A stretch of 64,000 nt of DNA, from assembly GCF_037892425.1 (NCBI RefSeq), contig NZ_JBBKTT010000001.1, forward strand, positions 1,674,001 to 1,738,000, written 5' to 3'. A program made the translations under genes and the position numbers. A model generated the notes under the pieces. That model worked only from the letters and a program-made list of their open reading frames with translations. It was not told where the DNA came from and did no database searches. Below, in pieces: positions 1,977 to 50,330 of the stretch. This DNA comes from Lacibacter sp. H375 (GTDB lineage: Bacteria; Bacteroidota; Bacteroidia; Chitinophagales; Chitinophagaceae). Within the stretch, counting starts at the first letter, position 1. Each line of letters opens with the position of its first letter.

Positions 1977-3272
1977 ATGAGTAATACTATCATAAAAGTG
2001 GAGGATCTCAGCAAGCAATACCGCCTGGGGCAGGTGAGTACGGGCACAATTAGTCATGATGTGAATCGCTGGTGGCACAAAGTGCGTGGTAAGGAAGATC
2101 CATATTTAAAGATTGGTGAAACCAATGATCGCACATCCACCGGAAGTACGGATTATGTATGGGCGTTAAAAGATATCAACTTTGATGTAAAACAGGGCGA
2201 AGTGCTCGGCATCATTGGTCGTAACGGCGCCGGCAAAAGTACATTGCTCAAAATCTTAAGCCGCACCACCGCACCAACCACAGGCAGTATAAAAATAAAG
2301 GGGAGGGTAGCCAGCCTACTTGAAGTAGGCACTGGCTTTCATCCTGAACTGAGCGGAAGGGATAATATTTTTCTTAACGGCGCCATTCTGGGTATGACCA
2401 AAAAAGAGATCACCCGCAAGTTTGATGAGATTGTTGCCTTTGCAGGGGTAGAACGATATATTGATACACCTGTTAAACGTTACAGCAGCGGTATGTATGT
2501 GCGGCTGGCATTTGCTGTAGCAGCACATCTCGAGCCCGAGATCTTAATTGTAGATGAAGTGCTGGCCGTAGGTGATGCAGAGTTCCAGAAAAAATGTTTG
2601 GGTAAAATGAAAGATGTGAGTGAGAAGGACGGAAGAACAGTGTTGTTTGTGAGTCATAATATGGCAGCAATTAATAACCTGTGTAAGAATGTAACGGTTC
2701 TGGCCAATGGAATGGTTCAATTCACCGGTAATGTACATGATGGCATCTCAAACTATATGAATCAGGTTGGAGAAAATAAGGAATGGGAAGAACAAAAAAT
2801 GATTGTTGATGAGTTAAATGATAATGATACTTTAGAATTAATTGATCTTAAGATATTCCAAAATAGAGACCAGACAAATTTTGAATTTGTTACTGATAAG
2901 TCGGTTCAAGTAATGTTTAAGTATAAAGTAAAGAAACGTTCTTATGGGTTAAGAATTGGATTTGATCTGTTTTTGAAAGATCTTGATATAATGATGTTCA
3001 GATCATTTCATGATGAAAATGAGGCTTCTTTAGAAGAAATACAAGAAGGTACATACGAAACAACCTTTTTAATACCTGCTCATTTACTTAAAAGCGGTAC
3101 ATATATTTTGAAACCGGCAATCGGAGTACATAATGTTAAATGGATTTTTTATGATTCGGTAAGTGTTCAGTTTAATTTGAATCATGTTGGAGGCATAAAC
3201 CAAAACTATGCTGATGACAGACCGGGGATAATAATGCCTTATATAGAATCACAAACTTTAAAAGTCGACTAA
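1977..3272 (+). CDS. wzt: Polysaccharide ABC exporter ATPase with C-terminal glycan-binding domain
   Basis: The 431-residue protein has an ABC ATPase core and a Wzt-type C-terminal extension. The Walker A motif GRNGAGKST is at residues 81-89, the signature YSSGM at 169-173, the Walker B ILIVDE at 189-194 and the switch histidine in VSHN near 227. Residues from about 285 to 431 form the beta-rich domain that in known Wzt proteins binds the modified non-reducing end of the glycan and gates export. Base composition drops sharply near the domain boundary: 2221-2280 has 32 G+C of 60 and 2821-2880 has 14 of 60. This suggests the C-terminal domain was exchanged together with the downstream genes. 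Its stop overlaps the next start (TAATG). Confidence 0.93.
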   Translation: MSNTIIKVEDLSKQYRLGQVSTGTISHDVNRWWHKVRGKEDPYLKIGETNDRTSTGSTDYVWALKDINFDVKQGEVLGIIGRNGAGKSTLLKILSRTTAPTTGSIKIKGRVASLLEVGTGFHPELSGRDNIFLNGAILGMTKKEITRKFDEIVAFAGVERYIDTPVKRYSSGMYVRLAFAVAAHLEPEILIVDEVLAVGDAEFQKKCLGKMKDVSEKDGRTVLFVSHNMAAINNLCKNVTVLANGMVQFTGNVHDGISNYMNQVGENKEWEEQKMIVDELNDNDTLELIDLKIFQNRDQTNFEFVTDKSVQVMFKYKVKKRSYGLRIGFDLFLKDLDIMMFRSFHDENEASLEEIQEGTYETTFLIPAHLLKSGTYILKPAIGVHNVKWIFYDSVSVQFNLNHVGGINQNYADDRPGIIMPYIESQTLKVD

Positions 3273-35689: not shown

Positions 35690-36853
35690 TTGAAGCAACG
35701 CATCCTCATTTTTTACGACCATTTTTATCCATCTTACAAAGCTGGCGGCCCCACACAATCACTGGTTAATCTTGTAAGGGAGCTGTATGAAGTATATGAT
35801 TTTTACGTGGTATGCAAACCTCATGAAATGGGTGATGTTGGTTTGCTGAATGGTATTACAGCTGATCATTGGAATGAATGGGAAGGAAGAGCAAAAGTGT
35901 TTTACTGGCATTACAGTTGGTCAACAAAAAATACACTGCAAAAACTGATAAAGGATATATCGCCAGATGCAGTTTATGTGAATGGATTGTATTCGCTTTA
36001 TTTTAATTTCTTGCCCCTTTATTATGCAAAACAATTAAAAAGTGAACTTGGGCAACTTACTATTGTTCTTTCAGCAAGAGGTATGTTGCATCCGGGGGCT
36101 CTGTCGCAAAAAGCCATCAAGAAAAAAATTTACCTCCTGTTATTTCGATTGTTAGGTATCCCGGAAATGGTGACATGGCATGCAACAGATGATAATGAGC
36201 GAAATTTTATAAAACTGACAATGGGTGATAAGATGCGTATAACTGTTGCTGCAAATTTTCCAAATCTTCAGCCAATCAGTGCACGGCCGCATAAACAACC
36301 CGGTAAGTTGTTGTTGGGTACTATTGCTTTGATCAGTCCAATGAAGAATCATCTCGAAGTTTTGCGGTCATTGACAAAGGCGAAAGGATCTATTGAATGG
36401 CATATTTTCGGTCCTGTGAAAGATGATACATATTGGAAAAATTGTGAAGCAATGATTCAACAATTACCTTCTAATATTAAAGTGATTTATCATGGCGAAC
36501 TTCCACCTCATTTACTTACAAAGGCAATGGAGCAATTTCAGGTATTCATCATGCCGAGCAAGAGTGAGAATTTCGGACATGCCATCGTTGAAGCATTGAG
36601 TGCAGGTAAGCCCGTAATAACAACCACTACCACACCTTTTGCTGATCTTGAAGTGTTTGGTTGTGGCTTTGCTATAACGCCAGAAAAATTGTCTGAAGGT
36701 TTGCAGGAAGCAATTGGTAAGTTTGCCGCCATGGATGAAAGCGAATTCAACAATGTTGCAGCGTCAACTCAAAAATATATAGATCAGAAGATCGAGAAAT
36801 CAAGTTTGAAAAAAGCGTATTATTCTCTTTTCAATAACAGGGCACATCTGTAA
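35690..36853 (+). CDS. Family 4 glycosyltransferase
   Basis: The 387-residue enzyme starts at a TTG; no upstream ATG is available and the residues from KQRILIFYDHFYPSYKAGG match the usual GT4 opening, so the TTG is credible. ARGMLHPGALSQKA is the conserved middle block, and MPSKSENFGHAIVEALSAGKP holds the EX7E acids. A 97-base spacer precedes it. The last base overlaps the acetyltransferase start. Confidence 0.87.
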   Translation: MKQRILIFYDHFYPSYKAGGPTQSLVNLVRELYEVYDFYVVCKPHEMGDVGLLNGITADHWNEWEGRAKVFYWHYSWSTKNTLQKLIKDISPDAVYVNGLYSLYFNFLPLYYAKQLKSELGQLTIVLSARGMLHPGALSQKAIKKKIYLLLFRLLGIPEMVTWHATDDNERNFIKLTMGDKMRITVAANFPNLQPISARPHKQPGKLLLGTIALISPMKNHLEVLRSLTKAKGSIEWHIFGPVKDDTYWKNCEAMIQQLPSNIKVIYHGELPPHLLTKAMEQFQVFIMPSKSENFGHAIVEALSAGKPVITTTTTPFADLEVFGCGFAITPEKLSEGLQEAIGKFAAMDESEFNNVAASTQKYIDQKIEKSSLKKAYYSLFNNRAHL

Positions 36854-37407
36854 TGAATACTCGTCTGGATAAATATGATAACAGCTGGTATAATCCAGGT
36901 CGATCGGGAGTCGTTCGATCTATTTGGTTTTTTATGAGTGTGTTATTTGTTCAATGCAGTTGGAATCCTTTGTCATCAATACGGATATTTTTATTGCGTT
37001 TGTTTGGTGCAAAAATTGGAAATGGTGTTACCATTAAACCAGGTGTATATATCAAATATCCATGGTTATTATCAGTCGGCAATTCAGTTTGGATCGGTGA
37101 GAATGTTTGGATAGATAATCTTGCACAAGTTACAATAGCAGATCATGTTTGTATTTCGCAAGGAGCCTACCTCTTGACCGGCAATCATGATTATACCAAA
37201 TCGACTTTTGATTTGATGGTGAAACCGATTGATCTGAAAGAGGGAGTTTGGATCGGGGCGAAATCAATTGTATGCCCCGGTGTTACATGTCAATCTCATT
37301 CTGTTTTATCAGTTGGTTCAGTTGCACGTTCTGAATTGGCACCCTATAAAATTTACAGCGGTAATCCTGCAGTAGAAGTAAAAGACAGGATCATACACAC
37401 TTCATGA
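36853..37407 (+). CDS. wcaF: WcaF-type acetyltransferase
   Basis: The 184-residue protein resembles colanic-acid acetyltransferase WcaF. It has YDNSWYNPGRS near 8-18, a short hydrophobic region, LFGAKIGNGVTIKPGV and the beta-helix repeats VGNSVWIGENVWI and LKEGVWIGAKSIVCPG. LTGNHDYTK near 112 carries the catalytic histidine. It should O-acetylate a sugar of the growing glycan. It overlaps both neighbours (TAATG, ATGA). Confidence 0.85.
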   Translation: MNTRLDKYDNSWYNPGRSGVVRSIWFFMSVLFVQCSWNPLSSIRIFLLRLFGAKIGNGVTIKPGVYIKYPWLLSVGNSVWIGENVWIDNLAQVTIADHVCISQGAYLLTGNHDYTKSTFDLMVKPIDLKEGVWIGAKSIVCPGVTCQSHSVLSVGSVARSELAPYKIYSGNPAVEVKDRIIHTS

Positions 37408-38171
37408 AAGTCTCCATCATCACAGTAGTTTACAACCGGGCTTCAACAATTGAACGGGCCATCCGTTCGGTGCTCAATCAATCATACAAGAACATTGAGT
37501 ATGTGATTGTGGATGGAAAATCGAGTGATGGAACAATGGCTGTGGTTGATCAATATAGAGACCGGATTGCAACTGTTATTTGTGAGAAGGATCATGGTAT
37601 GTATGATGCGCTGAATAAAGGGATCAAAGCAGCAACAGGTGATATTGTTGGCATTCTTCATGCAGATGATGAGTTTACCAATGAAACGATTATTCAGCAG
37701 ATCGTTGAAAAATTTCAGAGTAACTCAGTGATCGATGCGATCTATGGTGATGTCGGATTTGTGCAACCGGGACAGGAACATAAAATTGTCCGCTATTATT
37801 CTTCAGCTATTTTCAAAACCAACCTGTTCAAATTTGGTTTTATGCCGGCGCATCCAACGTTCTTCTGTTACCGCCGCTTTTTTGAACAATTTGGTTACTA
37901 CCGTACTGATTTGGAAATTGCAGCCGATTTTGATCTGCTCTTACGCTTTTTAAGAAAGCACCAATTATTTACAGTTTATATTCCTGAAATGCTGGTGCGG
38001 ATGAATATGGGAGGCAAGAGTACAAACGGCATCAGCAGTACCATCAAGATCAATAAAGAATTGAAGCAGATTCTTTCGGAACATAAATTGCCATCGAGTT
38101 ACATAAGGCTGTACTCCAGGTATTTTATCAAGGTGAGTGAGTTTTTGAGAACGAAGAAAGCTAAGAGTTAA
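37404..38171 (+). CDS. Family 2 glycosyltransferase (WcaE-like)
   Basis: The 255-residue GT-A enzyme has VSIITVVYNRASTIERAIR near 2-20, IVDGKSSDGTM near 37-47, EKDHGMYDALNKG and LHADDEF near 90-96. The layout fits the WcaE/WbbD-like transferases that sit beside wcaF in colanic-acid-type loci. It ends a run of coupled genes; 172 bases of purine-rich repeat-like sequence follow before gmd. Confidence 0.87.
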   Translation: MKVSIITVVYNRASTIERAIRSVLNQSYKNIEYVIVDGKSSDGTMAVVDQYRDRIATVICEKDHGMYDALNKGIKAATGDIVGILHADDEFTNETIIQQIVEKFQSNSVIDAIYGDVGFVQPGQEHKIVRYYSSAIFKTNLFKFGFMPAHPTFFCYRRFFEQFGYYRTDLEIAADFDLLLRFLRKHQLFTVYIPEMLVRMNMGGKSTNGISSTIKINKELKQILSEHKLPSSYIRLYSRYFIKVSEFLRTKKAKS

Positions 38172-38343
38172 AAGATGGAAGGGAGGAAAAGAGGGTGATT
38201 AGGTGTTGGGAATTGGGGATTTGGAATTGGTAGTTAGGAATGGGGGGATCTGGAAGTACAAAAAGAAGATTGTGAGATAAGTATATGGGTATAAAAGTAG
38301 ATAAGTAAAACATTACGACTAACATAAATCACGAAAAACAATA
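38172..38343. repeat. G-rich intergenic degenerate repeat
   Basis: The stretch 38180-38250 is a string of GGAATT-like and GGGG runs, for example TTGGGAATTGGGGATTTGG, on the + strand with few C. No reading frame is convincing. It resembles decayed short tandem repeats that collect between transcription units; the promoter for gmd is likely in the A+T-rich part after 38280, though no box is clear. Confidence 0.5.
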
Positions 38344-39456
38344 ATGAAAAAAGCATTAATTACAGGTATTACAGGACAGGATGGTGCTTACCTTTCTGAT
38401 CTTTTGTTGAAGAAAGGATATGAAGTGCATGGTATCAAACGCAGAACATCTTTGTTCAATACTGATCGTATCGATCACCTGTATGAAGATCCGCATATCG
38501 ACAACCGTCATTTTGTGTTGCATTATGGTGATCTTACCGACAGCACCAATCTCATTCGCATTATACAGGAAGTACAGCCCGATGAAATTTACAACCTCGG
38601 TGCGATGAGTCATGTAAAAGTGAGTTTTGATATCCCAGAATACACAGCTAACACCGATGCAGTTGGTACACTACGTATATTAGAAGCAGTACGTTTGCTT
38701 GGTCTTACCGAGAAGACAAGAATTTACCAGGCCTCTACTTCTGAGTTATATGGATTGGTACAGGAAGTTCCTCAAACGGAACGAACGCCCTTCTATCCAC
38801 GTTCTCCCTATGCTGTAGCAAAAATGTATGGCTTCTGGATCACGGTGAACTATCGTGAAGCGTATAACATGTATGCATGTAATGGTATTTTGTTCAATCA
38901 TGAATCACCATTGCGTGGTGAAACATTTGTCACAAGAAAAATCACCCGTGCAGTTGCAAAAATTGCTTTGGGGATGCAGGATAAGTTATGGTTGGGTAAT
39001 CTTAATGCTCAGCGTGACTGGGGTCATGCAAAAGATTATGTGGAAGCTATGTGGCTGATGCTTCAGCAGGATGGTCCTGAAGATTTTGTGATTGCAACCG
39101 GTGTTACCACTCCTGTTCGTGAGTTTGTACGTCTGGCATTTGCCGAAGTAGGTATCGAAATTGAATTTAAAGGCGAGGGTGTTGATGAAAAGGGAATTGT
39201 AAAAAGTTGTTCGAATGCTGCTTATCAACTGAGCATCGGTACAGAAGTAGTAGCTGTTGATCCACGGTATTTCCGTCCAACTGAAGTGGAGTTATTGATT
39301 GGCGATCCTACAAAAGCAAATACGAAGTTAGGTTGGAAACCAAAATACGATCTTAACGGTTTGGTGCAGGAAATGGTAGCGGCAGATCTTGATATTTTCA
39401 AGCGTGAAAAATTATTGCACGAAAGTGGTTACAAGATCAAAAACCAATTTGAATAA
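38344..39456 (+). CDS. gmd: GDP-mannose 4,6-dehydratase
   Basis: The 370-residue short-chain dehydrogenase makes GDP-4-keto-6-deoxymannose from GDP-mannose. [19 protein letters not shown] near 4-22 is the NADP-binding motif, [14 protein letters not shown] follows, and [11 protein letters not shown] precedes the catalytic Y-x3-K in [10 protein letters not shown] near 158-168. Length matches the family. It overlaps the next gene by one base, so the two enzymes of GDP-fucose synthesis are made together. Confidence 0.97.
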
Positions 39457-40385
39457 TGGAGAAGAAAGATAAAATATATGTGGCGGGTCACCGAGGTATG
39501 GTTGGTTCTGCGATTGTGCGTAAGCTGCAGCAGGAAGGGTTTGATAATTTAGTAGTACGCACTTCTGCTGAGCTTGATCTGCGTAACCAGGAATCGGTTG
39601 ATGTGTTCTTCAAAGAATACAAACCCGATTATGTGTTTATGGCTGCAGCAAAAGTGGGTGGTATTGTGGCGAATAATACTTACCGTGCTGAGTTTTTATA
39701 TGATAACCTGATGATCCAGAATAATGTGATTCATTCATCTTACAAACACAGCGTATCAAAATTGTTATTCCTTGGTTCATCCTGCATCTATCCAAAATTT
39801 GCAGAGCAACCTATCAAAGAAGAATACCTGCTCACGGGAACGTTAGAGCAAACCAACGAGCCTTACGCCATTGCAAAAATTGCAGGCTTAAAATTATGTG
39901 AAGCGTACCGCAGCCAGTATGGAAGCAATTTTATTTCGGCCATGCCAACAAATCTGTATGGTCCGAATGATAATTACGATCTGCAGAATTCTCATGTACT
40001 GCCGGCATTGCTTCGCAAAATGATCGTAGCGAAACGTACACAGCAAACTGCGGTTGAAATTTGGGGGTCGGGTACACCACGCCGTGAGTTTCTGCATGTG
40101 GATGATCTTGCTGATGCCTGTTTCTTTTTAATGCAGGAGTATGACGGAACAGAGTGGATGAATATTGGTGTGGGTGAAGATGTATCCATCAAAGAACTGG
40201 CAGAACTTATTAAAGATATTGTTGGTTACGAAGGTGAATTACAATTCAATACTTCAAAACCCGACGGCACACCACGTAAGTTACTCGATGTTTCTAAACT
40301 GCAGAACCGTGGCTGGAAAGCGAAGATTGGTTTGAGAGAAGGAATTCAGAATGTATATGAAGAGGTAAAGTCGTTGCCGTTTTAG
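39456..40385 (+). CDS. fcl: GDP-L-fucose synthase
   Basis: The 309-residue enzyme epimerises and reduces the product of Gmd to GDP-L-fucose. The NADP motif [13 protein letters not shown] is near 9-21, [10 protein letters not shown] near 105-114 carries the catalytic serine and cysteine and [13 protein letters not shown] holds the Y-x3-K pair. The gene pair implies that L-fucose, or a sugar derived from it, is in the polysaccharide. GDP-mannose supply genes are not in the window. Confidence 0.97.
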
Positions 40386-40393
40386 GGAAGGAA

Positions 40394-40449
40394 AAGGTGC
40401 AAGGCACAAGGCACAAGGAACAAGAGAGAAGGCACAAGGCACAAGGTGC
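40394..40449 (+). repeat. Seven-base tandem repeat, eight units
   Basis: Eight in-register units of seven bases follow the fcl stop: AAGGTGC, AAGGCAC, AAGGCAC, AAGGAAC, AAGAGAG, AAGGCAC, AAGGCAC, AAGGTGC. The order is nearly symmetric around the middle. It lies between fcl and the phosphatase gene and adds a false N-terminal extension to that gene's frame. It is a minisatellite-like element, not a CRISPR array. Confidence 0.85.
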
Positions 40450-40468
40450 AAGAAGTAAGTATAAAACA

Positions 40469-41221
40469 ATGTTTGGATTATTTAAAAAGAAGAAAGAAGA
40501 ACAGCCTGCTAACCTGGTGATCGATTACAGCGGGTTAGGTATTGATATGCATTCGCATCTCTTGCCGGGTATTGATGATGGTTCTCCTGATGCTGTAACT
40601 TCTGTGCGCTATATTAAAAAAATGATGGGGCTGGGCTATCGTAAATTCATCACTACGCCACATATTTATCCCGACCTGTATCCAAACACCAGGGAAACAA
40701 TTACAGCAGCACTGCAGGTATTAAAAACAAAACTGCAGGAAGAACAGGTTGATGTAGAAGTGCATGCGGCCGCAGAATATTTTATTGATGATCTGTTTGC
40801 AGATCGTTTGAATAATGATGAGCAGCTGTTGACAATCCACAAGAACTTTGTACTGGTTGAAATATCGTTCATGCAGGCACCTTCCGATCTGAAGAATGTA
40901 TTATTCGACTTAATTGTAAAAGGCTATCAACCTGTGCTTGCACATCCTGAGCGATATAATTATTATCATTCAAGAAAAGAGGCGTATCACCGGTTTAAAG
41001 ACCAGGGCTGTTTGTTGCAGGTAAATCTACTTTCGTTAAGTGGTTATTATGGTAAGAGTGTGCAGGAAGCAGCCCATTACCTGGTAGATCACAAACTGGT
41101 TGATCTTATTGGCACCGATCTTCATCACGAGCGTCATCTTGAAGCTATGCAGCATCCCCAATTAATGGCAGATGTGCAAAGAGCTTTAAACACAAATCAT
41201 CTTCTCAACGCTACCCTTTAA
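40469..41221 (+). CDS. CpsB/YwqE-type protein-tyrosine phosphatase (PHP domain)
   Basis: The ATG at 40469 gives a 250-residue protein; an upstream in-frame ATG at 40397 lies before the tandem repeat and would only add repeat-encoded residues. The PHP metal motifs are complete: DMHSHLLPGIDDG near 26-38, TTPHIYPDLY near 62-71, a central Glu in AAEYF, LAHPERY and GTDLHHERH near the end. Relatives remove phosphate from BY-kinases that control capsule chain length. No such kinase is in the window, so its target is inferred from family knowledge. Confidence 0.9.
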   Translation: MFGLFKKKKEEQPANLVIDYSGLGIDMHSHLLPGIDDGSPDAVTSVRYIKKMMGLGYRKFITTPHIYPDLYPNTRETITAALQVLKTKLQEEQVDVEVHAAAEYFIDDLFADRLNNDEQLLTIHKNFVLVEISFMQAPSDLKNVLFDLIVKGYQPVLAHPERYNYYHSRKEAYHRFKDQGCLLQVNLLSLSGYYGKSVQEAAHYLVDHKLVDLIGTDLHHERHLEAMQHPQLMADVQRALNTNHLLNATL

Positions 41222-41226
41222 CCTGT

Positions 41227-42426
41227 TTGAACAAACCACGCTTATTAATTATTCTGAACCGTTTGGCTGTTGGTGGGCCGGCTTTTAATGTAATTAGCGG
41301 AGCGGCTGCATTAAGTAATGAGTTTGAAATATTGTTGCTAGCGGGCGAACCTGATGTTGATGAACAACCAGCTGATTATTTACTCGATCAATACAAAGGT
41401 TTTCAGTTTCAGAAGATCAACTCTCTAAAACGTTCCGTACTACCAGGTACAGATTTGCGTGCTTACAAAGAAGTAAAACAGGCTATCAGGAAATTTCAAC
41501 CGCAGATTGTGCATACACACGGTGCAAAGCCAGGTGTACTTGGCAGGCTGGCGGCTTATCGTTCAAACGTGCCCGTTATTGTTCATACGTTTCATGGGCA
41601 CGTGTTTCATTCCTATTTTTCAGGGTTCGTTTCTAAAAGTATTGTTCGTATAGAGCAATGGCTCGCTGGTTTTTCTTCGGCAATAGTAGCCATCAGCGAA
41701 ACACTGAAAGAGGAGCTGACGAACAAATACAAGATTGCGTCGGCAAGTAAAATAAAACTCATCAGGCTTGGTATTGATACAACACAGTTTTATGATGAAG
41801 ACGGAAGCAAGAGAAGTCATTTCCGTAACGAGTTCAATTTGTCAAGTGATACAATCGCCATCGGCATTGTTGGTCGGTTGGTTCCGGTAAAAAATCATCG
41901 ACTGTTTATTGAAACTGCAGCACAGATATTAAGGAAGAACGGGAATAATAAAAATCTTCAATTTTTTATTGTGGGTGATGGAACAGGCCGTACATCGCTG
42001 CAACAACTCATCCATTCAAAGCAATTGACATTTGCAAATGCTGGTTCACCTGATAACAGCAGTGCAAACTTCATCTTCACTTCATGGCGGAAAGATATGG
42101 ATGCTGTGTATGCCGGTTTAGACATTGTTATGCTGACATCTCTCAATGAAGGGACACCTGTTTCTATCATGGAAGCAATGGCAGCAGGTCGTTCTGTACT
42201 ATCAACAAATGTTGGCGGTATTTCTGAACTGATCACAACCGGGCAAACAGGATTGCTGGCTTCCAACGAAACTGAATTAGCTGCAGGCTTATCTTCTCTC
42301 ATTGAAAATGCAAAGCTTCGTGAGCAATTTTCAATTGCAGCAGCAAAGGATGCAGCCCGATTTTCTAAGTCGGCCGAGCTGGAAGCATTGTCCTCACTTT
42401 ACCATTCCCTGCTTCGTTCTGCCTGA
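41227..42426 (+). CDS. Family 4 glycosyltransferase
   Basis: The 399-residue enzyme starts at a TTG six bases after the phosphatase stop; LLIILNRLAVGGPAFNV at the start matches a GT4 opening. HTHGAKPGVLGRLAA and HTFHGHVFHSYF mark the acceptor domain, GIVGRLVPVKNHRLFIETA the donor domain, and SLNEGTPVSIMEAMAAGRS the EX7E acids. It is the last gene of the glycan locus before the carotenoid regulator. Confidence 0.9.
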   Translation: MNKPRLLIILNRLAVGGPAFNVISGAAALSNEFEILLLAGEPDVDEQPADYLLDQYKGFQFQKINSLKRSVLPGTDLRAYKEVKQAIRKFQPQIVHTHGAKPGVLGRLAAYRSNVPVIVHTFHGHVFHSYFSGFVSKSIVRIEQWLAGFSSAIVAISETLKEELTNKYKIASASKIKLIRLGIDTTQFYDEDGSKRSHFRNEFNLSSDTIAIGIVGRLVPVKNHRLFIETAAQILRKNGNNKNLQFFIVGDGTGRTSLQQLIHSKQLTFANAGSPDNSSANFIFTSWRKDMDAVYAGLDIVMLTSLNEGTPVSIMEAMAAGRSVLSTNVGGISELITTGQTGLLASNETELAAGLSSLIENAKLREQFSIAAAKDAARFSKSAELEALSSLYHSLLRSA

Positions 42427-42507: not shown

Positions 42508-43392
42508 ATGAACAAGTTTACCATTAAAGACCTCGAAAATCTGAGTGGCATTAAGGCCCACACGATCCGCATTTGGGAGCAACGTTATTCGTTCCTGAAG
42601 CCGCAACGTACGGCTACGAATATCCGTTATTACAGCAACCATGAGTTAAAAATGTTACTCAACATTTCGCTGCTCAATAAATACGGGTATAAGATCTCAC
42701 ACATCAACCGCATGAGCAATGATGAATTGCGGGACAAAACGCTCACACTCACAAGTGCAGAGGCTCAACAGGAGCGTATTGTAAATGAGCTTATTCAATA
42801 CATGATTGATGTTGAACTGGATGGCTTCGAAAAGGTTCTTGACCAATACATTCAGTTAAGAGGAGTTGAAAAAGCCATTACATATATCATCTTTCCTTTT
42901 TTGGAAAGGATCGGTATACTCTGGTTAACGGATCATATTAACCCGGCACAGGAACATCTTATCACAAATATCATCAGGCAAAAGCTGATCGTTGGTATCG
43001 ATAACGCTGTTACTCCGTTGTCGCTCAAAACAAAAATGCTTCTTTTTCTCCCCGAGAACGAGCATCATGAAATTGGATTACTGTTTCTGCAATACATGCT
43101 GAAGAACCGTGGGGTAAAAGTGATTTACCTGGGGGCGAATGTTCCGGTTAAAGACCTGGAGTATGTGGTGGAGCTGAAAAAACCGGATTATATCTATACT
43201 CATCTTACAACCGTTATCAAGGAGTTTAATTTTGATAAGTTCATCAATAATCTGAAACTGAGGTTTCCTCATCAGCAGATTGTCATCTCTGGTTTGATGG
43301 CCCAAACCTTTGAGAAAAAGCAAATGCCCTCCAATTTCCGTTTTCTTAAATCATTTGCAGAAGTAAATGAATTCATGGCAAGCCTAACTTAA
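42508..43392 (+). CDS. carH: MerR/CarH-like cobalamin-binding transcriptional regulator
   Basis: The 294-residue protein joins an N-terminal MerR helix-turn-helix (FTIKDLENLSGIKAHTIRIW near 4-23, WEQRYSFLKPQRT follows) to a C-terminal B12-binding module. A four-helix-bundle signature W-x9-EH is exact at W139 and E149-H150. The E-x-H-x-x-G form of the cobalamin motif is at 185-190, with His187 as probable lower ligand. CarH of Thermus and Myxococcus uses these residues to sense light with adenosylcobalamin and repress carotenoid genes. The residue after W139 is Leu, not the His that caps cobalt in Thermus CarH after light. The gene lies directly before the carotenoid unit. Confidence 0.85.
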   Translation: MNKFTIKDLENLSGIKAHTIRIWEQRYSFLKPQRTATNIRYYSNHELKMLLNISLLNKYGYKISHINRMSNDELRDKTLTLTSAEAQQERIVNELIQYMIDVELDGFEKVLDQYIQLRGVEKAITYIIFPFLERIGILWLTDHINPAQEHLITNIIRQKLIVGIDNAVTPLSLKTKMLLFLPENEHHEIGLLFLQYMLKNRGVKVIYLGANVPVKDLEYVVELKKPDYIYTHLTTVIKEFNFDKFINNLKLRFPHQQIVISGLMAQTFEKKQMPSNFRFLKSFAEVNEFMASLT

Positions 43393-43465: not shown

Positions 43466-43551
43466 TGTTTAATGTTTCGTAAAAAATATTAAACAAAAAT
43501 TTGGTAAACTCATGGTTGTTTGTTTAACTTTACAGTGTAATCAATTAAACA
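43466..43551. promoter_or_regulatory. Paired TGTTTAA/TTAAACA half-sites in the sigma-factor promoter
   Basis: Two inverted-repeat pairs are present. TGTTTAAT (43466-43473) and ATTAAACA (43488-43495) form a perfect eight-base inverted repeat with a 14-base spacer. TGTTTAA (43521-43527) and TTAAACA (43545-43551) form a second, 17 bases apart. The pairs repeat at about 56-base intervals. The third half-site overlaps the proposed -7 box, as expected for a repressor. The adjacent CarH-like protein is the obvious candidate binder. Confidence 0.65.
43500..43532 (+). promoter_or_regulatory. Candidate promoter of the ECF sigma gene
   Basis: TTTG at 43500-43503 and TAACTTTA at 43525-43532 resemble the Bacteroidota -33 and -7 boxes (TTTG and TAnnTTTG), with a 21-base spacer and one mismatch in the -7 box. 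The start codon follows 26 bases later. Confidence 0.5.
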
Positions 43552-43558
43552 AAATGTT

Positions 43559-44059
43559 ATGTCAACGGTAGAATTCAATCAAATGCTTTTGAACAACACT
43601 GATTTTCTGAAGCCCTTTGCTTTCACGCTCACACGGGATAATGAAACAGCTAAGGATTTGTTGCAGGAAACCATGTACCGGGCTTTATCGAACCGGGAAA
43701 AATATAATGTTGGTACAAACATTAAAGCATGGTTGTACACCATTATGCGTAACATTTTCATCAACAACTATCGCAGAAAGGTGAAACAAAACACCATTTT
43801 TGATTCTACCCCAAACGATTTTTTTATCGATTACCAGCAGGCAACAGTTTCGAATGATGCGGAGTCTGCTTTAAAGATGAAAGAAATACAGGCCGCTGTT
43901 CACCAGCTTCCAGATATTTTCAAGAGTCCTTTCATGCTTTATTTCGAAGGGTTTAAATACCACGAAATAGCACATGTTCTCAATGAGCCCTTAGGTACAA
44001 TCAAGAGTCGTATTCATTTTGCTCGTAAATTGTTGAAGGAACAGATCAGCAGAAATTAA
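43559..44059 (+). CDS. ECF-type RNA polymerase sigma factor
   Basis: The 166-residue protein has the two ECF domains. Region 2 covers about 20-75 with ETAKDLLQETMYRAL and KAWLYTIMRNIFINNYRR; region 4 covers about 110-160 with LPDIFKSPFMLYFEG and the helix-turn-helix YHEIAHVLNEPLGTIKSRI. No anti-sigma gene is adjacent. It starts the carotenoid unit and is twelve bases from crtI, so its level probably follows the putative CarH-like repressor. It may direct polymerase to carotenoid or photoprotection promoters. Confidence 0.92.
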   Translation: MSTVEFNQMLLNNTDFLKPFAFTLTRDNETAKDLLQETMYRALSNREKYNVGTNIKAWLYTIMRNIFINNYRRKVKQNTIFDSTPNDFFIDYQQATVSNDAESALKMKEIQAAVHQLPDIFKSPFMLYFEGFKYHEIAHVLNEPLGTIKSRIHFARKLLKEQISRN

Positions 44060-44070
44060 ATCTTCACAAC

Positions 44071-45561
44071 TTGGCTCAACAAGCACTCGTTATTGGCAGC
44101 GGCTTTGCCGGCATGTCCGTGGCTACCTTTCTTGCTCATGAAGGATGGGACGTTACGGTTTTAGAAAAACATGATCAACCTGGCGGCAGGGCAAGGCAGC
44201 TGAAAGCCGATGGATTTACATTTGATATGGGCCCAAGCTGGTACTGGATGCCTGATGTGTTCGAACACTATTTCAACCAGTTTGGGAAAAAGGTGAGTGA
44301 TTATTACGAGCTGAAAAGACTCGATCCTTCCTACCGCATTTATTATTCCAACGACGTAGTTGATATTCCCGCTGATTACAATGCCATGAAAACCCTGTTC
44401 GAAACAATTGAACCGGGTGCAGGTAAACGGCTCGATCAGTTTATGGATGAAGCGGCATATAAATATGAAGTGGGTATTCAAAAGCTTGTGTACAAACCCG
44501 GCTTATCGGTAACGGAGTTTGCAGACATGGATCTCATGAAAGGCATTTTTAAATTAGATGTCTTTGCTTCCATGAAAACACATGTTCGAAAATATTTTTC
44601 TGATCCACGCTTGAGGGAACTTATGGAATTTCCTGTTCTTTTTTTAGGAGCATTGCCTGAAAAGATTCCTGCTCTTTATAGTTTGATGAATTATGCCGAT
44701 GTAAAGCTGGGTACTTGGTATCCCATGGGTGGTATGTACGAGATCGTAAAAGCAATGCACCGATTGGCCGAAGAAAAAGGCGTGAAATTTTTATTCAACC
44801 ACAATGTTGAAAGCATAACAACATCCGATGAAGTAGCAACAGGAGTTGTAGCAAACGAAACCTACTTTGAAGCTGATGTAGTGATCAGCGGAGCAGATTA
44901 TCACTTCACCGATACCCATTTATTAAAACATCATTACCAGGGTTATTCAGAAGCATATTGGAACAACCGTGTAATGGCACCTTCCTGTCTGCTCTATTAT
45001 GTAGGCATCAACAAACGGTTAACCAATTTGCCTCATCACAGTTTATTCTTCGATACCAATTTTGAAAAACATGGCCAGGAAATTTATGATGATCCGAAGT
45101 GGCCAACTGAACCGTTGTTTTATGTAAGTGCAACAACTGTTACCGATTCTTCAGGTGCTCCTGAAGGTTGCGAAAATCTTTTCTTCCTTATTCCGGTTGC
45201 TTCAGGTTTAAAAGGCGATACGGAAGAAATAAGGGATCAATATTTCCAGCAAATAATTCAGCGTTTTGAGCAACGTATCGGTGAACCAATTCTTGATTCT
45301 ATTGTTTATAAAAGATCGTATTCAGTTAGCGATTTCGTTTCTGATTACAACGCATTCCGTGGAAATGCGTACGGACTGGCAAATACACTGATGCAGACGG
45401 CTATTTTAAAACCATCCTGCCGAAGTAAAAAAGTAACCAACCTGTTTTATACGGGTCAGTTAACAGTTCCTGGTCCGGGAGTGCCGCCAAGTTTGATCAG
45501 TGGAGAAGTAGTAGCAAAGCTGGTAAATAAACAATTCGCTAAGAAAAAGCAACACAGTTGA
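44071..45561 (+). CDS. crtI: Phytoene desaturase
   Basis: The 496-residue FAD enzyme converts phytoene to lycopene by successive dehydrogenation. The dinucleotide motif ALVIGSGFAGMSVA is at 5-18, LEKHDQPGGRARQ follows, and the C-terminal carotenoid-oxidase signature TGQLTVPGPGVPPSLISG is near 468. It starts at a TTG, because the residues right after it are the conserved FAD strand. It lies five bases before crtB. A second CrtI-family member at 46950 probably acts later in the pathway. Confidence 0.95.
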   Translation: MAQQALVIGSGFAGMSVATFLAHEGWDVTVLEKHDQPGGRARQLKADGFTFDMGPSWYWMPDVFEHYFNQFGKKVSDYYELKRLDPSYRIYYSNDVVDIPADYNAMKTLFETIEPGAGKRLDQFMDEAAYKYEVGIQKLVYKPGLSVTEFADMDLMKGIFKLDVFASMKTHVRKYFSDPRLRELMEFPVLFLGALPEKIPALYSLMNYADVKLGTWYPMGGMYEIVKAMHRLAEEKGVKFLFNHNVESITTSDEVATGVVANETYFEADVVISGADYHFTDTHLLKHHYQGYSEAYWNNRVMAPSCLLYYVGINKRLTNLPHHSLFFDTNFEKHGQEIYDDPKWPTEPLFYVSATTVTDSSGAPEGCENLFFLIPVASGLKGDTEEIRDQYFQQIIQRFEQRIGEPILDSIVYKRSYSVSDFVSDYNAFRGNAYGLANTLMQTAILKPSCRSKKVTNLFYTGQLTVPGPGVPPSLISGEVVAKLVNKQFAKKKQHS

Positions 45562-45565
45562 GCTT

Positions 45566-46402
45566 ATGATGAATGTTTTTCATGAAGTATGTCAGTTATG
45601 CAGTCGCAACACAACGGAGCGATACAGCACTTCGTTTTCATCAGCCATCCGTTTGCTGCACCAGGATCTGAGGCAGCCCATCTATAATATTTATGGATTG
45701 GTACGTTTTGCTGATGAGATCGTTGATACATTTCATGAGTTTGATAAAGCCACGCTCATCAAGGATTTTCGCAAGCAAACCTTCGAGGCAATTGAACGTG
45801 GTATCAGCATCAATCCAATTTTGCATAGTTTCCAGATAACAGTCAATCAATACAATATTGATCATCAGTTGATCCATGCATTCTTTAACAGCATGGAAAT
45901 GGATCTTGAAAGAACACAATACAATCACGAAACATACAATGACTATATCTACGGCAGCGCTGAAGTAGTAGGACTGATGTGCCTGTATGTTTTTCTTGAA
46001 GGCGATAGAGCACAGTATGAAAAACTGAAACCATCAGCACGTTCTTTAGGTGCTGCTTTTCAGAAAGTGAATTTCCTGCGTGATGTAAAGGCAGATTACA
46101 ATCAACTCGACCGCACTTATTTTCCCGGGCTTGATTTTTCCAGTTTTACCGAACGTCAAAAGCGTGAAATTGAAGAAGACATCCAGAAAGATTTTGACGA
46201 TGCTTACGAAGGCATTATGCAACTGCCTGCCAAAGCCCGCTTCGGTGTGTATGTGGCCTATAAATATTATCTCTCGCTTTTCCGTAAGATCAAACGCCTG
46301 CAACCCGCTACCATTATGCATGAGCGGGTTCGTATCCCCGATTATCATAAGGTGATGATCCTGTTAAGAGCCGGTGTTCGCAACCAGCTTAACATTATGT
46401 AA
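45566..46402 (+). CDS. crtB: Phytoene synthase
   Basis: The 278-residue enzyme condenses two geranylgeranyl diphosphates to phytoene. The first Asp-rich motif DEIVD is at 50-54 and the second appears in NFLRDVKADYNQLDRTYF near 172-189. SSAIRLLHQDLRQ near 25-37 is also conserved. It lies between crtI and idi, each a few bases away, in one operon. Confidence 0.95.
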   Translation: MMNVFHEVCQLCSRNTTERYSTSFSSAIRLLHQDLRQPIYNIYGLVRFADEIVDTFHEFDKATLIKDFRKQTFEAIERGISINPILHSFQITVNQYNIDHQLIHAFFNSMEMDLERTQYNHETYNDYIYGSAEVVGLMCLYVFLEGDRAQYEKLKPSARSLGAAFQKVNFLRDVKADYNQLDRTYFPGLDFSSFTERQKREIEEDIQKDFDDAYEGIMQLPAKARFGVYVAYKYYLSLFRKIKRLQPATIMHERVRIPDYHKVMILLRAGVRNQLNIM

Positions 46403-46426: not shown

Positions 46427-46963
46427 ATGCAGGAAGTAATTCTCGTGAACGAGTTTGATGAAGCTATTGGTTCCATGGAAAAAATGGAAGCACATGAAAA
46501 AGCATTACTTCACCGTGCTTTCAGTGTATTCCTGTTCAATAAGCAAGGTGAGATGTTGTTGCAGAAAAGAGCAGCATCAAAATATCACAGTCCTTCATTA
46601 TGGACTAATGCCTGCTGCAGTCATCCCATGCCTGGAGAAGAAACAAAAGCGGGGGCACTTCGACGACTGGAAGAAGAATTAGGATTCACTACCGCCATCA
46701 ACAATGCATTTCATTTTACTTATAAAGCTGTTTTTGATAATGGCTTAACAGAACATGAATTTGATCATGTATTTGTTGGAGAATACGAGGGAGTAATGAT
46801 CCTGAATACGGAAGAAGTGAGTGAAGTGTGTTATAAGCAGATGGCTGATATAAAAGCAGAGATTGAACACAACGCCGGAGATTATACCGAATGGTTCAAG
46901 ATAGCCTTCCCTTTATTAGAAGAATGGTTACAACAAAACAAAACTATCCATGCAACGGCGTAA
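46427..46963 (+). CDS. idi: Isopentenyl-diphosphate delta-isomerase, type I
   Basis: The 178-residue Nudix-fold enzyme interconverts isopentenyl and dimethylallyl diphosphate, supplying the prenyl starter for carotenoids. LHRAFSVFLFNKQG near 27-40, LWTNACCSHPMPGE near 62-75 with the catalytic cysteine, and the RRLEEELGF Nudix helix near 83-91 are all present. Its 3' end overlaps crtD by 14 bases. Confidence 0.95.
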   Translation: MQEVILVNEFDEAIGSMEKMEAHEKALLHRAFSVFLFNKQGEMLLQKRAASKYHSPSLWTNACCSHPMPGEETKAGALRRLEEELGFTTAINNAFHFTYKAVFDNGLTEHEFDHVFVGEYEGVMILNTEEVSEVCYKQMADIKAEIEHNAGDYTEWFKIAFPLLEEWLQQNKTIHATA

Positions 46964-48443
46964 AGCAGTTGTGATCGGCAGCGGTGTTGCAGGTTTAGCC
47001 GGAGCTATTCGTCTTGCAGTGATGGGTTACGAAGTAGACGTGTTTGAACGCAATGCTTACGCAGGAGGTAAACTTTCTTTTTTTGAAAAAAATGGTTTTT
47101 CGTTTGATGCCGGCCCATCTTTATTTACGCAGCCGCAAAATATTGAAGAACTTTTTGCTTTCGCAGGCGAACCGATCGGAGATTATTTTCAATATCGTAA
47201 AGTGGATCTTTCCTGCAATTATTTTTTTGAGAATGGAAGGAAAGTAAAAGCGTGGACGGATGCAGAAAGATTAGCTGATGAATTGCATACACAGCTGGGC
47301 GAAGACAAAACGTCTGTGTTGAACTATCTCCACAAAAGCGAAACGCTTTACAATAATATCGGCAGTGTTTTTTTAAATCATTCATTGCATAAACGAAGCA
47401 CCTGGTTTCAAAAATCAATATTGAAAGCATTGCAAACGGTGCGCCCCACTCATTTAATGGGAACCTTGCATGGTTTCAATCAGTCAGCATTTAAAAAACC
47501 GGAAACTATTCAGCTGTTCGATCGCTTTGCTACATACAACGGAAGTAATCCGTATCAAACGCCGGGCATGATGAGCTTAATCCCCCATCTCGAATTGAAT
47601 GAAGGAACATTCTATCCGGAAGGTGGAATGATCAGCATTACAAATGCTTTAATGAAACTCGCAAAAAAGAAAGGCGTTCGTTTTCATTTCAATTCACCTG
47701 TGCAACGCATCATTCAAGTGGAGGGCGAAGCAAAAGGTGTGGTGGTGAATGATGAAAATGTTTTTGCGGATGTGGTGTTAAGCAATGCTGATATTTATTT
47801 TACGTATCACCATTTGCTCGGCGATCCTGTGCAAACCAAACAGGTATTAAAACAGGAACGCAGTTGCAGTGGTATGATCTTTTACTGGGGTATGAACAGG
47901 GAGTTTCCTGAACTTCATTTGCACAATATCTTCTTCAGTAAAAATTATGCAGCTGAATTTCAAGCGATCTTTCAACAGAAACGATTGTACAACGATCCAA
48001 CAGTGTATGTGAACATCACTTCTAAAATGGAAGAAGGACTTGCGCCCAACGGAAAAGAGAATTGGTTTCTGCTCATCAATGCACCATCAAATATTGGACA
48101 GAACTGGGAGCAGATGCGTGTGCAAGTGCGGCAACAGGTGATCGATAAACTCAGTCGTTTGCTGCAAACAGATATTTCTTCGGCAATTGAAGTGGAAGAA
48201 TATCTAGATCCTATCCGTATTGAGGAACGAACAGGTTCTTATATGGGGTCGTTATATGGCACGAGTAGTAATAGTAAGATGTCTGCGTTTCTGCGTCATC
48301 CAAACTTTACCAATAAAATTGAAGGATTGTATTTCTGTGGTGGCAGTGTACATCCCGGTGGTGGTATTCCGCTTTGTTTCAAGAGTGCGAAAATTGCAAC
48401 TGAACTTATTCAACAGGATCAAACAAAACATGTTCATCATTAA
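46950..48443 (+). CDS. crtD: CrtI-family desaturase, probable 1-hydroxycarotenoid 3,4-desaturase
   Basis: The 497-residue FAD enzyme has VVIGSGVAGLAGAIRLA near 7-23, FERNAYAGGKLSFFEKNG and a C-terminal FCGGSVHPGGGIPLCFKSA near 466. It differs clearly from the crtI product and is placed after idi and before cruF. In Bacteroidota pathways the second desaturase of this type acts on the hydroxylated end made by CruF to add the 3',4' double bond. The assignment to this step rests on context as much as on sequence. Confidence 0.8.
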   Translation: MQRRKAVVIGSGVAGLAGAIRLAVMGYEVDVFERNAYAGGKLSFFEKNGFSFDAGPSLFTQPQNIEELFAFAGEPIGDYFQYRKVDLSCNYFFENGRKVKAWTDAERLADELHTQLGEDKTSVLNYLHKSETLYNNIGSVFLNHSLHKRSTWFQKSILKALQTVRPTHLMGTLHGFNQSAFKKPETIQLFDRFATYNGSNPYQTPGMMSLIPHLELNEGTFYPEGGMISITNALMKLAKKKGVRFHFNSPVQRIIQVEGEAKGVVVNDENVFADVVLSNADIYFTYHHLLGDPVQTKQVLKQERSCSGMIFYWGMNREFPELHLHNIFFSKNYAAEFQAIFQQKRLYNDPTVYVNITSKMEEGLAPNGKENWFLLINAPSNIGQNWEQMRVQVRQQVIDKLSRLLQTDISSAIEVEEYLDPIRIEERTGSYMGSLYGTSSNSKMSAFLRHPNFTNKIEGLYFCGGSVHPGGGIPLCFKSAKIATELIQQDQTKHVHH

Positions 48444-49132
48444 TGCTGCAACAATTCAGTAAACAACAGATCGCCACCGCTATTGCTGTGTTATTTCATT
48501 GCATTGGATTGGCCGGTATTTTGTTTTACGATGCGGCTTTATTTGCATCACTCACTCCAATGAATTTGTTGCTATCTGCCGGCTTACTCATCTACACACA
48601 AAAGGAAAAAAACAGTCACTTCTTTTTATTTGCTGCAGTATGTTATGTGGTTGGTTATACTGTTGAATATCTTGGCGTAAATCATCAATTGTTGTTTGGA
48701 GAATATCGTTACCTGTCTGCCATGGGGTGGCAATGGAAAAATATTCCACTGGTGATTGGTGTTAACTGGTTTATCATGATGTACTGCTGCGGAGTATCCA
48801 TTCAACACTTCCTCAACTTTATGTGGAATAAACTGAAAGATGAAGATGAGCCACGCCGCACTAATGTTGGCTTCTTTGCAATCATCATCGATGGTGCTTT
48901 ACTCGCTACGTTCTTCGATTGGATCATGGAGCCGATAGCTGTGAAGCTGGGTTACTGGCAATGGCTTGGAGATGGTTCGATTCCTGTATTTAACTACGCC
49001 TGCTGGTTCGGTATCAGTGCGTTATTGATGCTTTTGTTCCGGCTTTTATCTTTCCCGAAACAAAACCAATTCGCCGTAAATTTGTTATTGATCCAGTTCA
49101 TGTTCTTCTTAATCTTACGCACCGTATTATGA
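48443..49132 (+). CDS. cruF: CruF-type carotenoid 1,2-hydratase
   Basis: The 229-residue membrane protein has about seven hydrophobic segments and conserved polar blocks, including EYLGVNHQLLFGEYRYL near 72-88 and DWIMEPIAVKLGYWQW near 154-169, as in the CruF family (PF04240). CruF adds water across the 1,2 double bond of an acyclic psi end to give a 1-hydroxy group. It starts at the base overlapping the crtD stop and shares an ATGA overlap with crtZ. Confidence 0.85.
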   Translation: MLQQFSKQQIATAIAVLFHCIGLAGILFYDAALFASLTPMNLLLSAGLLIYTQKEKNSHFFLFAAVCYVVGYTVEYLGVNHQLLFGEYRYLSAMGWQWKNIPLVIGVNWFIMMYCCGVSIQHFLNFMWNKLKDEDEPRRTNVGFFAIIIDGALLATFFDWIMEPIAVKLGYWQWLGDGSIPVFNYACWFGISALLMLLFRLLSFPKQNQFAVNLLLIQFMFFLILRTVL

Positions 49133-49611
49133 GTTTGTTTTTATACATATTGCTGGCATTTGCTGTGTTTTTTACAATGGAAGGAATTACCTGGCTCACT
49201 CACCGGTTTGTGATGCATGGCTTCTTGTGGTATCTGCATGAAGATCATCACCAGCCTCGTGGCCGTTTCTTTGAAAAGAACGATGCCTTCTTTCTCATTT
49301 TTGCAATACCAAGTTGGTTGTGTATTATGCTGGGGTTAATGTACCAGGTTTATTGGGTGGTGAGTATTGGCGCAGGTATTGCCATGTATGGACTTGCTTA
49401 CTTTATTGTACACGATATCATTATTCACCAACGCTTTAAAATTTTCAGCAGGTGGAACAATACCTATGTGCGTGCTATTCGCTGGGCTCATAAAATGCAT
49501 CACAAACATTTAGATAAAGAAGATGGTGAAAGTTTTGGAATGTTGTTCGTGCATAAAAAATATTGGGAGAAGGTGAGGAAAGAAAAGCAACTCAATCCTA
49601 ATATTAAATAG
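49129..49611 (+). CDS. crtZ: Beta-carotene hydroxylase (fatty-acid hydroxylase superfamily)
   Basis: The 160-residue non-haem di-iron enzyme has the histidine boxes HRFVMHG near 26-32, HEDHH near 37-41, HDIIIH near 94-99 and HKMHHKH near 124-130, and three or four hydrophobic segments. It adds a 3-hydroxyl to a beta ring. It overlaps cruF by four bases. Confidence 0.92.
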   Translation: MSLFLYILLAFAVFFTMEGITWLTHRFVMHGFLWYLHEDHHQPRGRFFEKNDAFFLIFAIPSWLCIMLGLMYQVYWVVSIGAGIAMYGLAYFIVHDIIIHQRFKIFSRWNNTYVRAIRWAHKMHHKHLDKEDGESFGMLFVHKKYWEKVRKEKQLNPNIK

Positions 49612-49616
49612 CACAA

Positions 49617-50330
49617 TTGAACGCTCACTACACTTACTTTTTGATTCTTGGCGCTTCACTGGCAGGACCACTGTTGCTAAGCTTCGATAAAAAAGTAGCT
49701 TACTATAAAAAATGGAAATATCTTTTTCCGGCAATGTTGTTGCCGGCTTTATTTTTTTTAGTGTGGGATGAATTGAAGACAAGAGCAGGCGTATGGAGTT
49801 TCAGCGAAGAACATATCACCGGCGCTAAATTACTTTCTCTGCCAGTAGAAGAAGTGTTATTCTTTTTTGTTGTTCCTTATTGCTGTGTGTTTATTTATGA
49901 ATGTATTGTCTGTTATTTCCCTTCAGTAAAACAAAAAAAATGGGGAAGAGCAGTGTTACTAGTGATGGGAGTTTTCTTTTTGATTGCCGCAGTATTCAGT
50001 TACGGTAAAGCATACACGTTTTACACTTCTCTTTTTAATGCATCGTTTATTGCATTGCTGTTTCTTTTTCAGAAATGGTTCAGAGGATTCAACGCTTCTG
50101 CATTTCTTATTTCATATTTAGTAGTAGTGATCCCGTTCCTGATCGTGAATGGTTTGCTCACCGGTATTCCGGTGGTGTTGTATAACGATGCCGAGAATCT
50201 CGGCTTCCGCATTTTTTCGTTTCTTCCCTGGCCAATGAACAATATTCCGTTCGAAGATATTTTTTACGGCATGTTGCTAATCTTAATGAACGTGTCGTTG
50301 TTTGAACGGCTGCGTAGTAAAGCTGTATAA
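49617..50330 (+). CDS. crtYcd: Fused CrtYc/CrtYd-type lycopene beta-cyclase
   Basis: The 237-residue protein has six or seven hydrophobic segments and two repeats of the lycopene cyclase domain pattern, with VWSFSEEHITG, LPVEEVLFFFVVPY near 77-90 and, in the second half, PWPMNNIPFEDIFYGML, where the P-x-E/D acids are repeated. It forms a beta ring from a psi end. It starts at a TTG after crtZ, six bases on. Together the operon would give a carotenoid with one beta ring and one hydroxylated open end. Confidence 0.87.
   Translation: MNAHYTYFLILGASLAGPLLLSFDKKVAYYKKWKYLFPAMLLPALFFLVWDELKTRAGVWSFSEEHITGAKLLSLPVEEVLFFFVVPYCCVFIYECIVCYFPSVKQKKWGRAVLLVMGVFFLIAAVFSYGKAYTFYTSLFNASFIALLFLFQKWFRGFNASAFLISYLVVVIPFLIVNGLLTGIPVVLYNDAENLGFRIFSFLPWPMNNIPFEDIFYGMLLILMNVSLFERLRSKAV

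Follow-up and report, generated by a model that had tools for sequence, protein, structure and literature searches.

Variation at the upper-ligand position of cobalamin-dependent photoreceptors is already in print. CarH of Thermus thermophilus (TtCarH) is described as reaching a bis-His light state through His132, and the same account reports that the H132A variant stayed mostly tetrameric after light, with a 352-nm hydroxo species, whereas an earlier report on this variant had found disassembly; it also places the Arg176-Asp201 pair in the TtCarH dimer (PMC10442372). The upper-ligand His is semi-conserved and not defining for CarH or class I LitR. It is said to be present in 'many' myxobacterial CarH homologues (PMC9304148). 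A review defines CarH by the motifs Wx9EH and ExHx2G-x41-SxV/T-x22-27-GG, and gives the known CarH operators as 11-bp direct repeats nAnnTnnACAn, not inverted repeats (PMC8156234). In CtMerR, which is responsive to green light, an Arg occupies the upper-His site; the protein nevertheless binds AdoCbl, its CBD, a tetramer in the dark, becomes monomeric in light, and an anaerobic light crystal shows a Glu of the EH motif turned so as to contact cobalt through a water (PMC11796333). The same source lists Gln at this site in the photocobilin SasPcob and Tyr in AbDPcob, and proposes GxxW, EH, GxxH and GxxxP as the signature of light-responsive CBDs. As to the Bacteroidota, carotenoids are reported to be light-induced in a Chryseobacterium, with a regulator that was only guessed at (PMC7064467), and in the open-licence literature we found no paper on upper-His variation in this phylum or on the palindrome TGTTTAA/TTAAACA described below.

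A CarH-like regulator beside carotenoid genes

We analysed a window of 64,000 nucleotides from Lacibacter sp. H375 (contig NZ_JBBKTT010000001.1), to which all positions refer unless another contig or locus is named. The regulator, its domains and the genes that follow it are:

42508-43392, + strand: CarH-like regulator of 294 aa, ATG start; MerR domain, B12-binding_2 (four-helix) and B12-binding (Rossmann) domains
42517-42717, + strand: MerR-type DNA-binding domain, aa 4-70 (Pfam MerR_1), recognition helix R-I-W-E-Q-R-Y
42784-42987, + strand: B12-binding_2 four-helix bundle, aa 93-160 (Pfam; helices in the AF2 model)
43559-44059, + strand: ECF sigma factor, first gene past the candidate operator (Pfam Sigma70_r2, Sigma70_r4_2)
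44071-45561, + strand: CrtI-like phytoene desaturase (Pfam Amino_oxidase/NAD_binding_8; name inferred from the cluster)
45566-46402, + strand: CrtB-like phytoene synthase (Pfam SQS_PSY 3e-41)
46427-46963, + strand: Idi-like NUDIX protein, isopentenyl-diphosphate isomerase (Pfam NUDIX; name inferred)
46950-48443, + strand: second CrtI/CrtD-like desaturase (Pfam; name inferred)
48443-49132, + strand: CruF-like carotenoid gene (Pfam Caroten_synth 6e-23), presumably CruF
49129-49611, + strand: CrtZ-like hydroxylase, which we take to be CrtZ from its His motifs; no Pfam family
49617-50330, + strand: lycopene cyclase (Pfam Lycopene_cyc 3e-34)

All three Pfam matches of the regulator lie over the cut-off (MerR_1 5e-14, B12-binding_2 2.4e-7, B12-binding 7e-8) and follow the architecture of CarH and class I LitR, with the MerR domain N-terminal and both B12 domains C-terminal. 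R21, W23, E24 and R26 of the MerR domain are invariant in 30 aligned sequences. By sequence, the closest solved relative is TtCarH (3whp, 5c8d; 1.3e-22). An AlphaFold2 model built from 30 window and locus sequences (mean pLDDT 89.6) has 5c8d as its top Foldseek match (E 6.4e-16), and all 50 listed matches are CarH or LitR. The domains are placed differently in the whole model and 5c8d (TM-score 0.55, rmsd 9.1); CBD-only chains reach a TM of about 0.75-0.81 by target length (Foldseek). The first-pass annotation had taken the protein for a CarH-type regulator, which domains, fold and carotenoid context all bear out.

This context recurs: 28 of 30 family loci, and 16 of 23 further loci from a phylum search, have an ECF sigma gene no more than 1.5 kb from the regulator, once on the opposite strand, and crtI is found at 26 of the 30 and 15 of the 23 loci. 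The regulator thereby shares the genetic link to carotenoid genes by which CarH and class I LitR are recognized. Searched against its own genome (5.08 Mb), it gave no match beyond itself. This genome contains two cobalamin riboswitches, five further B12-binding matches, one of them below cut-off, and an adenosyltransferase gene (PF01923), which is non-discriminating, occurring in 142 of 147 family genomes. Just upstream of the regulator ends a polysaccharide-type cluster (35690-42426; named by inspection) with glycosyltransferase, GDP-mannose dehydratase-like and GDP-fucose synthase-like genes.

Residues of the cobalamin site

The positions that bear on cobalamin binding, with their conservation in 44 orthologues of at least 50% identity, are:

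42922-42927, + strand: W139 (44/44) and L140, the variable site corresponding to His132 of TtCarH
42934-42936, + strand: His143, on an interhelical loop; retained chiefly by close orthologues
42952-42957, + strand: E149-H150 of the Wx9EH motif (44/44 and 43/44)
43060-43077, + strand: lower-ligand motif E185-H-H187-E-I-G190 (E185 and H187 44/44, G190 41/44)
43201-43203, + strand: His232 at the Ser position of the B12 motif, tail pocket (His in 44/44)
43288-43293, + strand: Ser261-Gly262 at the Gly-Gly position of the B12 motif (Ser 43/44, Gly 44/44)

The translation reads G136, W139, L140, H143, E149, H150, N184, E185, H186, H187 and G190. Both motifs named in the first-pass annotation, Wx9EH (W139, E149-H150) and E185-x-H187-x2-G190, can thus be read directly from the ORF at 42508-43392, and E188, like W139, E149, E185 and H187, is found in 44/44 orthologues. 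Its placement of Leu140 at the TtCarH His132 site likewise holds in the alignment to 3whp and 5c8d, where L140 falls on the His of 'EAWHRGEIG'; the regulator has no upper-ligand His after its Trp. In the AF2 model L140 ends the W139 helix (120-140), His143 lies in the loop 141-145, and a second helix spans 146-165.

The other end of the site appears to have changed more. At x41-SxT/V-x22-27-GG the regulator reads H232-L-T234 and S261-G262, and the strict form of the B12 motif is fitted by 1 of 133 homologues; because the tail half of the motif is not kept, we term the regulator CarH-like, not CarH. In known B12 proteins, Ser and Gly-Gly of the B12 motif secure the nucleotide tail. These residues are changed in the regulator, and the tail pocket is therefore predicted to be remodelled. 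Judged from the sequence, the exchange of Ser for His232 and of Gly-Gly for Ser-Gly is a larger departure than the missing upper His; the regulator may take cobalamins with different lower bases, bind more weakly or not bind at all. The close orthologues, with their remodelled tail half, may use other corrinoids.

Three elements of the light-responsive CBD signature are present (G136-W139, E149-H150, G209-P213). In place of GxxH the regulator has N184-x-x-H187, where Gly is found in 36/44 orthologues. The positions of the Arg176-Asp201 pair are taken by H186-N211.

The upper histidine is rare in sampled Bacteroidota

We aligned 133 Bacteroidota sequences with TtCarH, 79 from the family sample (147 genomes) and 54 from a phylum sample (395), four of the latter again from the Chitinophagaceae. 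The residues were counted in 131 sequences, of which 11 without the full motif were set aside, leaving 120 intact ones (W139, E149-H150, H187). This number omits one intact sequence from genome G004 in both its copies (L043, L074; Gln140, Arg143), with which there would be 121 intact, 4 His140 and 80 with neither His140 nor His143.

A His follows the Trp in 4 of the 120 intact homologues; the residue found most often is L (27) or Q (27), followed by M (16), I (11), V (8) and R (5), with H (4) and others. The 116 intact homologues lacking His rule out L140 as a private change of the regulator. In the 44 close orthologues the entropy at site 140 is 2.55 bits, rank 251 of 280 from low to high, and its neighbours are W139 (44/44) and T141 (43/44). 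Parsimony on a tree of 132 sequences, from whose building sites 140 and 143 were excluded, gives 59 changes at site 140 against 3 at W139, 2 at E149 and 7 at H187.

His143 is present in 36 of the 43 intact close orthologues and in 4 of the 77 others, and 79 of 120, including 7 of the 43 close ones, have neither His140 nor His143, which rules out His143 as a general substitute. All three close orthologues that have His140 also keep His143, so the two histidines do not replace each other; the fourth His140 sequence (L116), a distant one, lacks His143.

Loci found with TtCarH, nearly all from Deinococcota, read Trp-His in 30 of 32 readable cases, in a set biased by one of its six search peptides containing Trp-His; the exceptions are L160 (Arg), L165 (one gene Gln, one His) and a rhizobial plasmid copy, L176 (Gln), and in L166 the site yielded no residue. 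The upper His is thus widespread in the Deinococcota lineage and rare in the sampled Bacteroidota.

A number of family genomes have a second, more distant MerR-B12 paralogue of about 40% identity (for example L051-L053, L057, L062), which carries a TPxGExHEIPL-like sequence instead of LPEGEHHELGL.

A candidate operator between regulator and sigma factor

The regulator and the sigma gene are separated by 166 bp, and this gap contains two palindromes whose starts are 55 bp apart:

43466-43495, no strand: distal candidate operator, TGTTTAA-N16-TTAAACA, TGTTTAATGTTTCGTAAAAAATATTAAACA
43521-43551, no strand: proximal candidate operator, TGTTTAA-N17-TTAAACA, TGTTTAACTTTACAGTGTAATCAATTAAACA, ending 7 bp before the sigma start codon

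The arms (TTAAACA or TGTTTAA) occur 124 times in 43 regulator-sigma gaps, counted without L072, whose genes lie on opposite strands, against 4.2 expected from base shuffles, and most of them keep much the same spacing to the start of the sigma gene. Of the 43 gaps, 31 contain at least one perfect palindrome and 8 contain two or more. Inside the proximal palindrome of the window lies a -7-like box that reads TAACTTTA; the pattern TAnnTTTG, which we take to be the -7 element of the housekeeping sigma in Bacteroidota, falls inside the proximal palindrome at 17 of 42 loci (L073, with a 26-bp gap, left aside) against 0.8 expected with shuffled spacers. A repressor bound to this palindrome would keep the putative promoter shut.

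The half-site, A(68%)-n-T-T-A-A-A-C-A, agrees with the CarH repeat nAnnTnnACAn, but the candidate operator consists of two inverted repeats with arms 23-24 bp apart, in contrast to the tandem 11-bp direct repeats of CarH. The Thermus-type 11-bp direct repeat was rejected as the operator: A..T..ACA occurs 101 times against 33 expected, and these matches are largely the TTAAACA arms themselves. Window scans for the palindrome with 3 mismatches gave chance level.

Palindromes across genomes and at rhodopsin genes

The genome of the regulator (5.08 Mb) contains 4 perfect palindromes with spacers of 15-18, against 0 for the reversed control. With up to 2 mismatches, palindromes and reversed control are about equal (83 v 77, 83 v 82), and only perfect sites were therefore used in this genome. 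Two of them lie outside the window:

C1:3264732-3264762 (L182:4533-4563): perfect palindrome 60 bp upstream of a rhodopsin gene; the next gene is of the Blh dioxygenase type
C1:1949033-1949063 (L181:4534-4564): perfect palindrome between START_2 and primary-sigma-like (rpoD-like) genes

The Blh gene encodes a beta-carotene dioxygenase. The site between START_2-like and rpoD-like genes recurs in two other genera (G034, G100; L230, L232).

Of the 67 family-sample genomes that have a close orthologue, 60 carry a perfect palindrome and 7 do not; it is also found in 19 of 26 with a more distant CarH-like gene only and in 10 of 54 with none, against 14/67, 9/26 and 15/54 for the reversed pattern in the same genomes; the 60/67 is partly circular, the regulator-sigma locus itself carrying the site, and uncorrected for kinship. 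In G005 the palindrome directly precedes the CarH-like gene itself. Among the matches listed we picked 20 palindromes away from CarH-like genes. Two of them are the START_2/rpoD-like sites of G034 and G100, three adjoin PTPS (pterin) or PTPS-like genes (G061, G143, G005), which are possible further members of a light regulon, and three stand at crtI-like or ECF-sigma-like genes (G078, G062, G106). Six of the 20 fall inside an ORF, including that in G062, which falls at the opening codons of the sigma ORF if this is read from a TTG start; the remaining ones precede genes with no recognizable light link, or no gene, and part of this list is surely background. Among these neighbours, the proteins of L181, L182, L226, L228 and L229 were scanned with Pfam, that of L229 giving no family, and all others were named by inspection. 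At L226, L227 and L228 the other flank of the PTPS-side palindrome carries a gene for a ClpP-type or SOUL haem protein.

The link to rhodopsin was followed in 42 genes, comprising 13/13 of the family sample and the best 29 loci of 65 matching genomes in a class sample of 295. A palindrome with at most 1 mismatch lies upstream of 15 of the 42 (0.11 expected; 0 with reversed arms), and one with at most 2 mismatches upstream of 21 (1.5 expected), compared with 0/48 at either threshold before 48 other ORFs of the same loci. The remaining 27 of 42 rhodopsin genes have no site with at most 1 mismatch. Within the family sample only 3 of 13 rhodopsin genes carry the palindrome, and congeners are split, G146 with and G066 without it. 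A CarH-like gene is present in 12 of the 13 rhodopsin genomes of this sample versus 93 of 147 overall (p 0.03). At L296, the 1.5 kb flank of the rhodopsin gene includes a CarH-like gene (2411-3022; 39% identity across 204 aa).

Discussion

How might a regulator of this kind respond to light with a leucine at the upper-ligand site? Its motifs, predicted fold and gene context, and the palindromes with their distribution, make it reasonably probable that it is a CarH/LitR-type AdoCbl-dependent light repressor of the ECF sigma-crt and rhodopsin-Blh genes whose light state is not bis-His. In the dark, AdoCbl would bind in the His187-on form, its adenosyl group gripped by W139 and E149-H150, and would lock a DNA-binding oligomer onto the two palindromes TGTTTAA-N16/17-TTAAACA, one of which would cover the -7 region of the ECF sigma-crt promoter. 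Light would break the Co-C bond. There being no His at 140, cobalt would most likely end up as Co(III), ligated by His187 from below and by water or hydroxide from above, the latter perhaps positioned by E149 in the manner of CtMerR, and not in a bis-His state. The oligomer would then release the DNA, allowing expression of the ECF sigma and carotenoid genes, and the rhodopsin-Blh genes elsewhere in the genome would be under the same switch. The first-pass annotation had proposed a variant light chemistry; this stands insofar as the light state is probably not bis-His, but the variant is by no means peculiar to this protein, with 116 of 120 intact homologues lacking the His. Several points seem to speak against our reading, as neither the tail half of the B12 motif nor the GxxH Gly nor the Arg-Asp dimer pair is kept. 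By analogy with H132A TtCarH, loss of the upper His can also cost function (PMC10442372).

The same losses lend some substance to a B12-independent regulator like CarA, in which the fold would be kept and some other signal, through a partner protein or through the pathway of the ECF sigma, would convey light or singlet oxygen: the B12 motif has lost its tail half, the Arg-Asp pair of the dimer (PMC10442372) is not kept, and Myxococcus CarA sets the precedent (PMC9304148). However, CarA is described as having lost the Trp but kept the B12 motif (PMC9304148), and the presence of W139, E149 and H187 in 44/44 orthologues is difficult to account for unless cobalt carries an adenosyl group; with an adenosyltransferase gene also in the genome, we consider this alternative unlikely. 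We give far less credence still to His143 taking the place of His132 as upper ligand, which the first-pass annotation had named as one option and which would yield a bis-His light state through the loop. The residue does follow directly after the W139-L140 helix and is shared by 36 of 43 intact close orthologues, but 79 of 120 intact homologues, 7 of the 43 close ones included, have neither His, and the three close orthologues with His140 all retain His143. Moreover, it aligns with Glu135 of TtCarH, which the available text of PMC10442372 does not mention.

Finally, the protein may be the cobalamin photoreceptor proposed here and yet the palindrome may belong to another regulator or to the ECF sigma, a division of roles that strikes us as rather improbable. 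The site is also found in 19 of 26 genomes with a distant CarH-like gene only and in 10 of 54 with no match. Against this, the perfect two-fold symmetry and the overlap with a housekeeping-type -7-like box argue against an ECF promoter, the half-site fits the CarH consensus, and in G005 the palindrome stands directly before the CarH-like gene.

Extending the AdoCbl-dependent light repressor from this locus to the class, we tentatively entertain a Bacteroidota light regulon in which CarH-like proteins with no bis-His switch and with a remodelled tail pocket would act on a paired inverted-repeat operator controlling the ECF sigma-carotenoid operon and (proteo)rhodopsin-Blh genes, a generalization that could well prove too broad. 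If it is true, a B12 photoreceptor would decide in these bacteria whether a retinal-based proton pump is made. Since the residue is missing from 116 of the 120 sampled Bacteroidota homologues, the bis-His light state known from Thermus is unlikely to apply to CarH proteins in general. The palindrome would offer a direct handle on the control of carotenoid and rhodopsin genes in Bacteroidota, and the part most worth testing, the candidate operator and its rhodopsin link, lies outside 42508-43392.

Comparison with known systems

In the LitR-LitS system of Streptomyces, the regulator gene adjoins an ECF sigma gene and crt genes; its phylum is different from that of the regulator's host. Myxococcus xanthus CarA shares the MerR plus CBD architecture and a carotenoid operon, but is reported to lack the Trp of Wx9EH and to be B12-independent (PMC9304148, PMC8156234), in contrast to the regulator, where W139 is present, as it is in 44/44 orthologues. 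CtMerR (8jbs/8jbt) resembles it in having a CBD with Arg instead of the upper His and with W, EH and the lower His kept; it differs in retaining the GxxH glycine, which is Asn184 in the regulator, and its profile match is limited to positions 125-265 (E 7e-8). TtCarH (LitR; 5c8d/3whp) is alike in domain order, Wx9EH, ExHx2G, carotenoid context and fold, whereas in the regulator His132 is exchanged for Leu140, Ser and Gly-Gly for His232 and Ser-Gly, and Arg176-Asp201 for His-Asn, and the predicted operator is inverted instead of built from 11-bp direct repeats.
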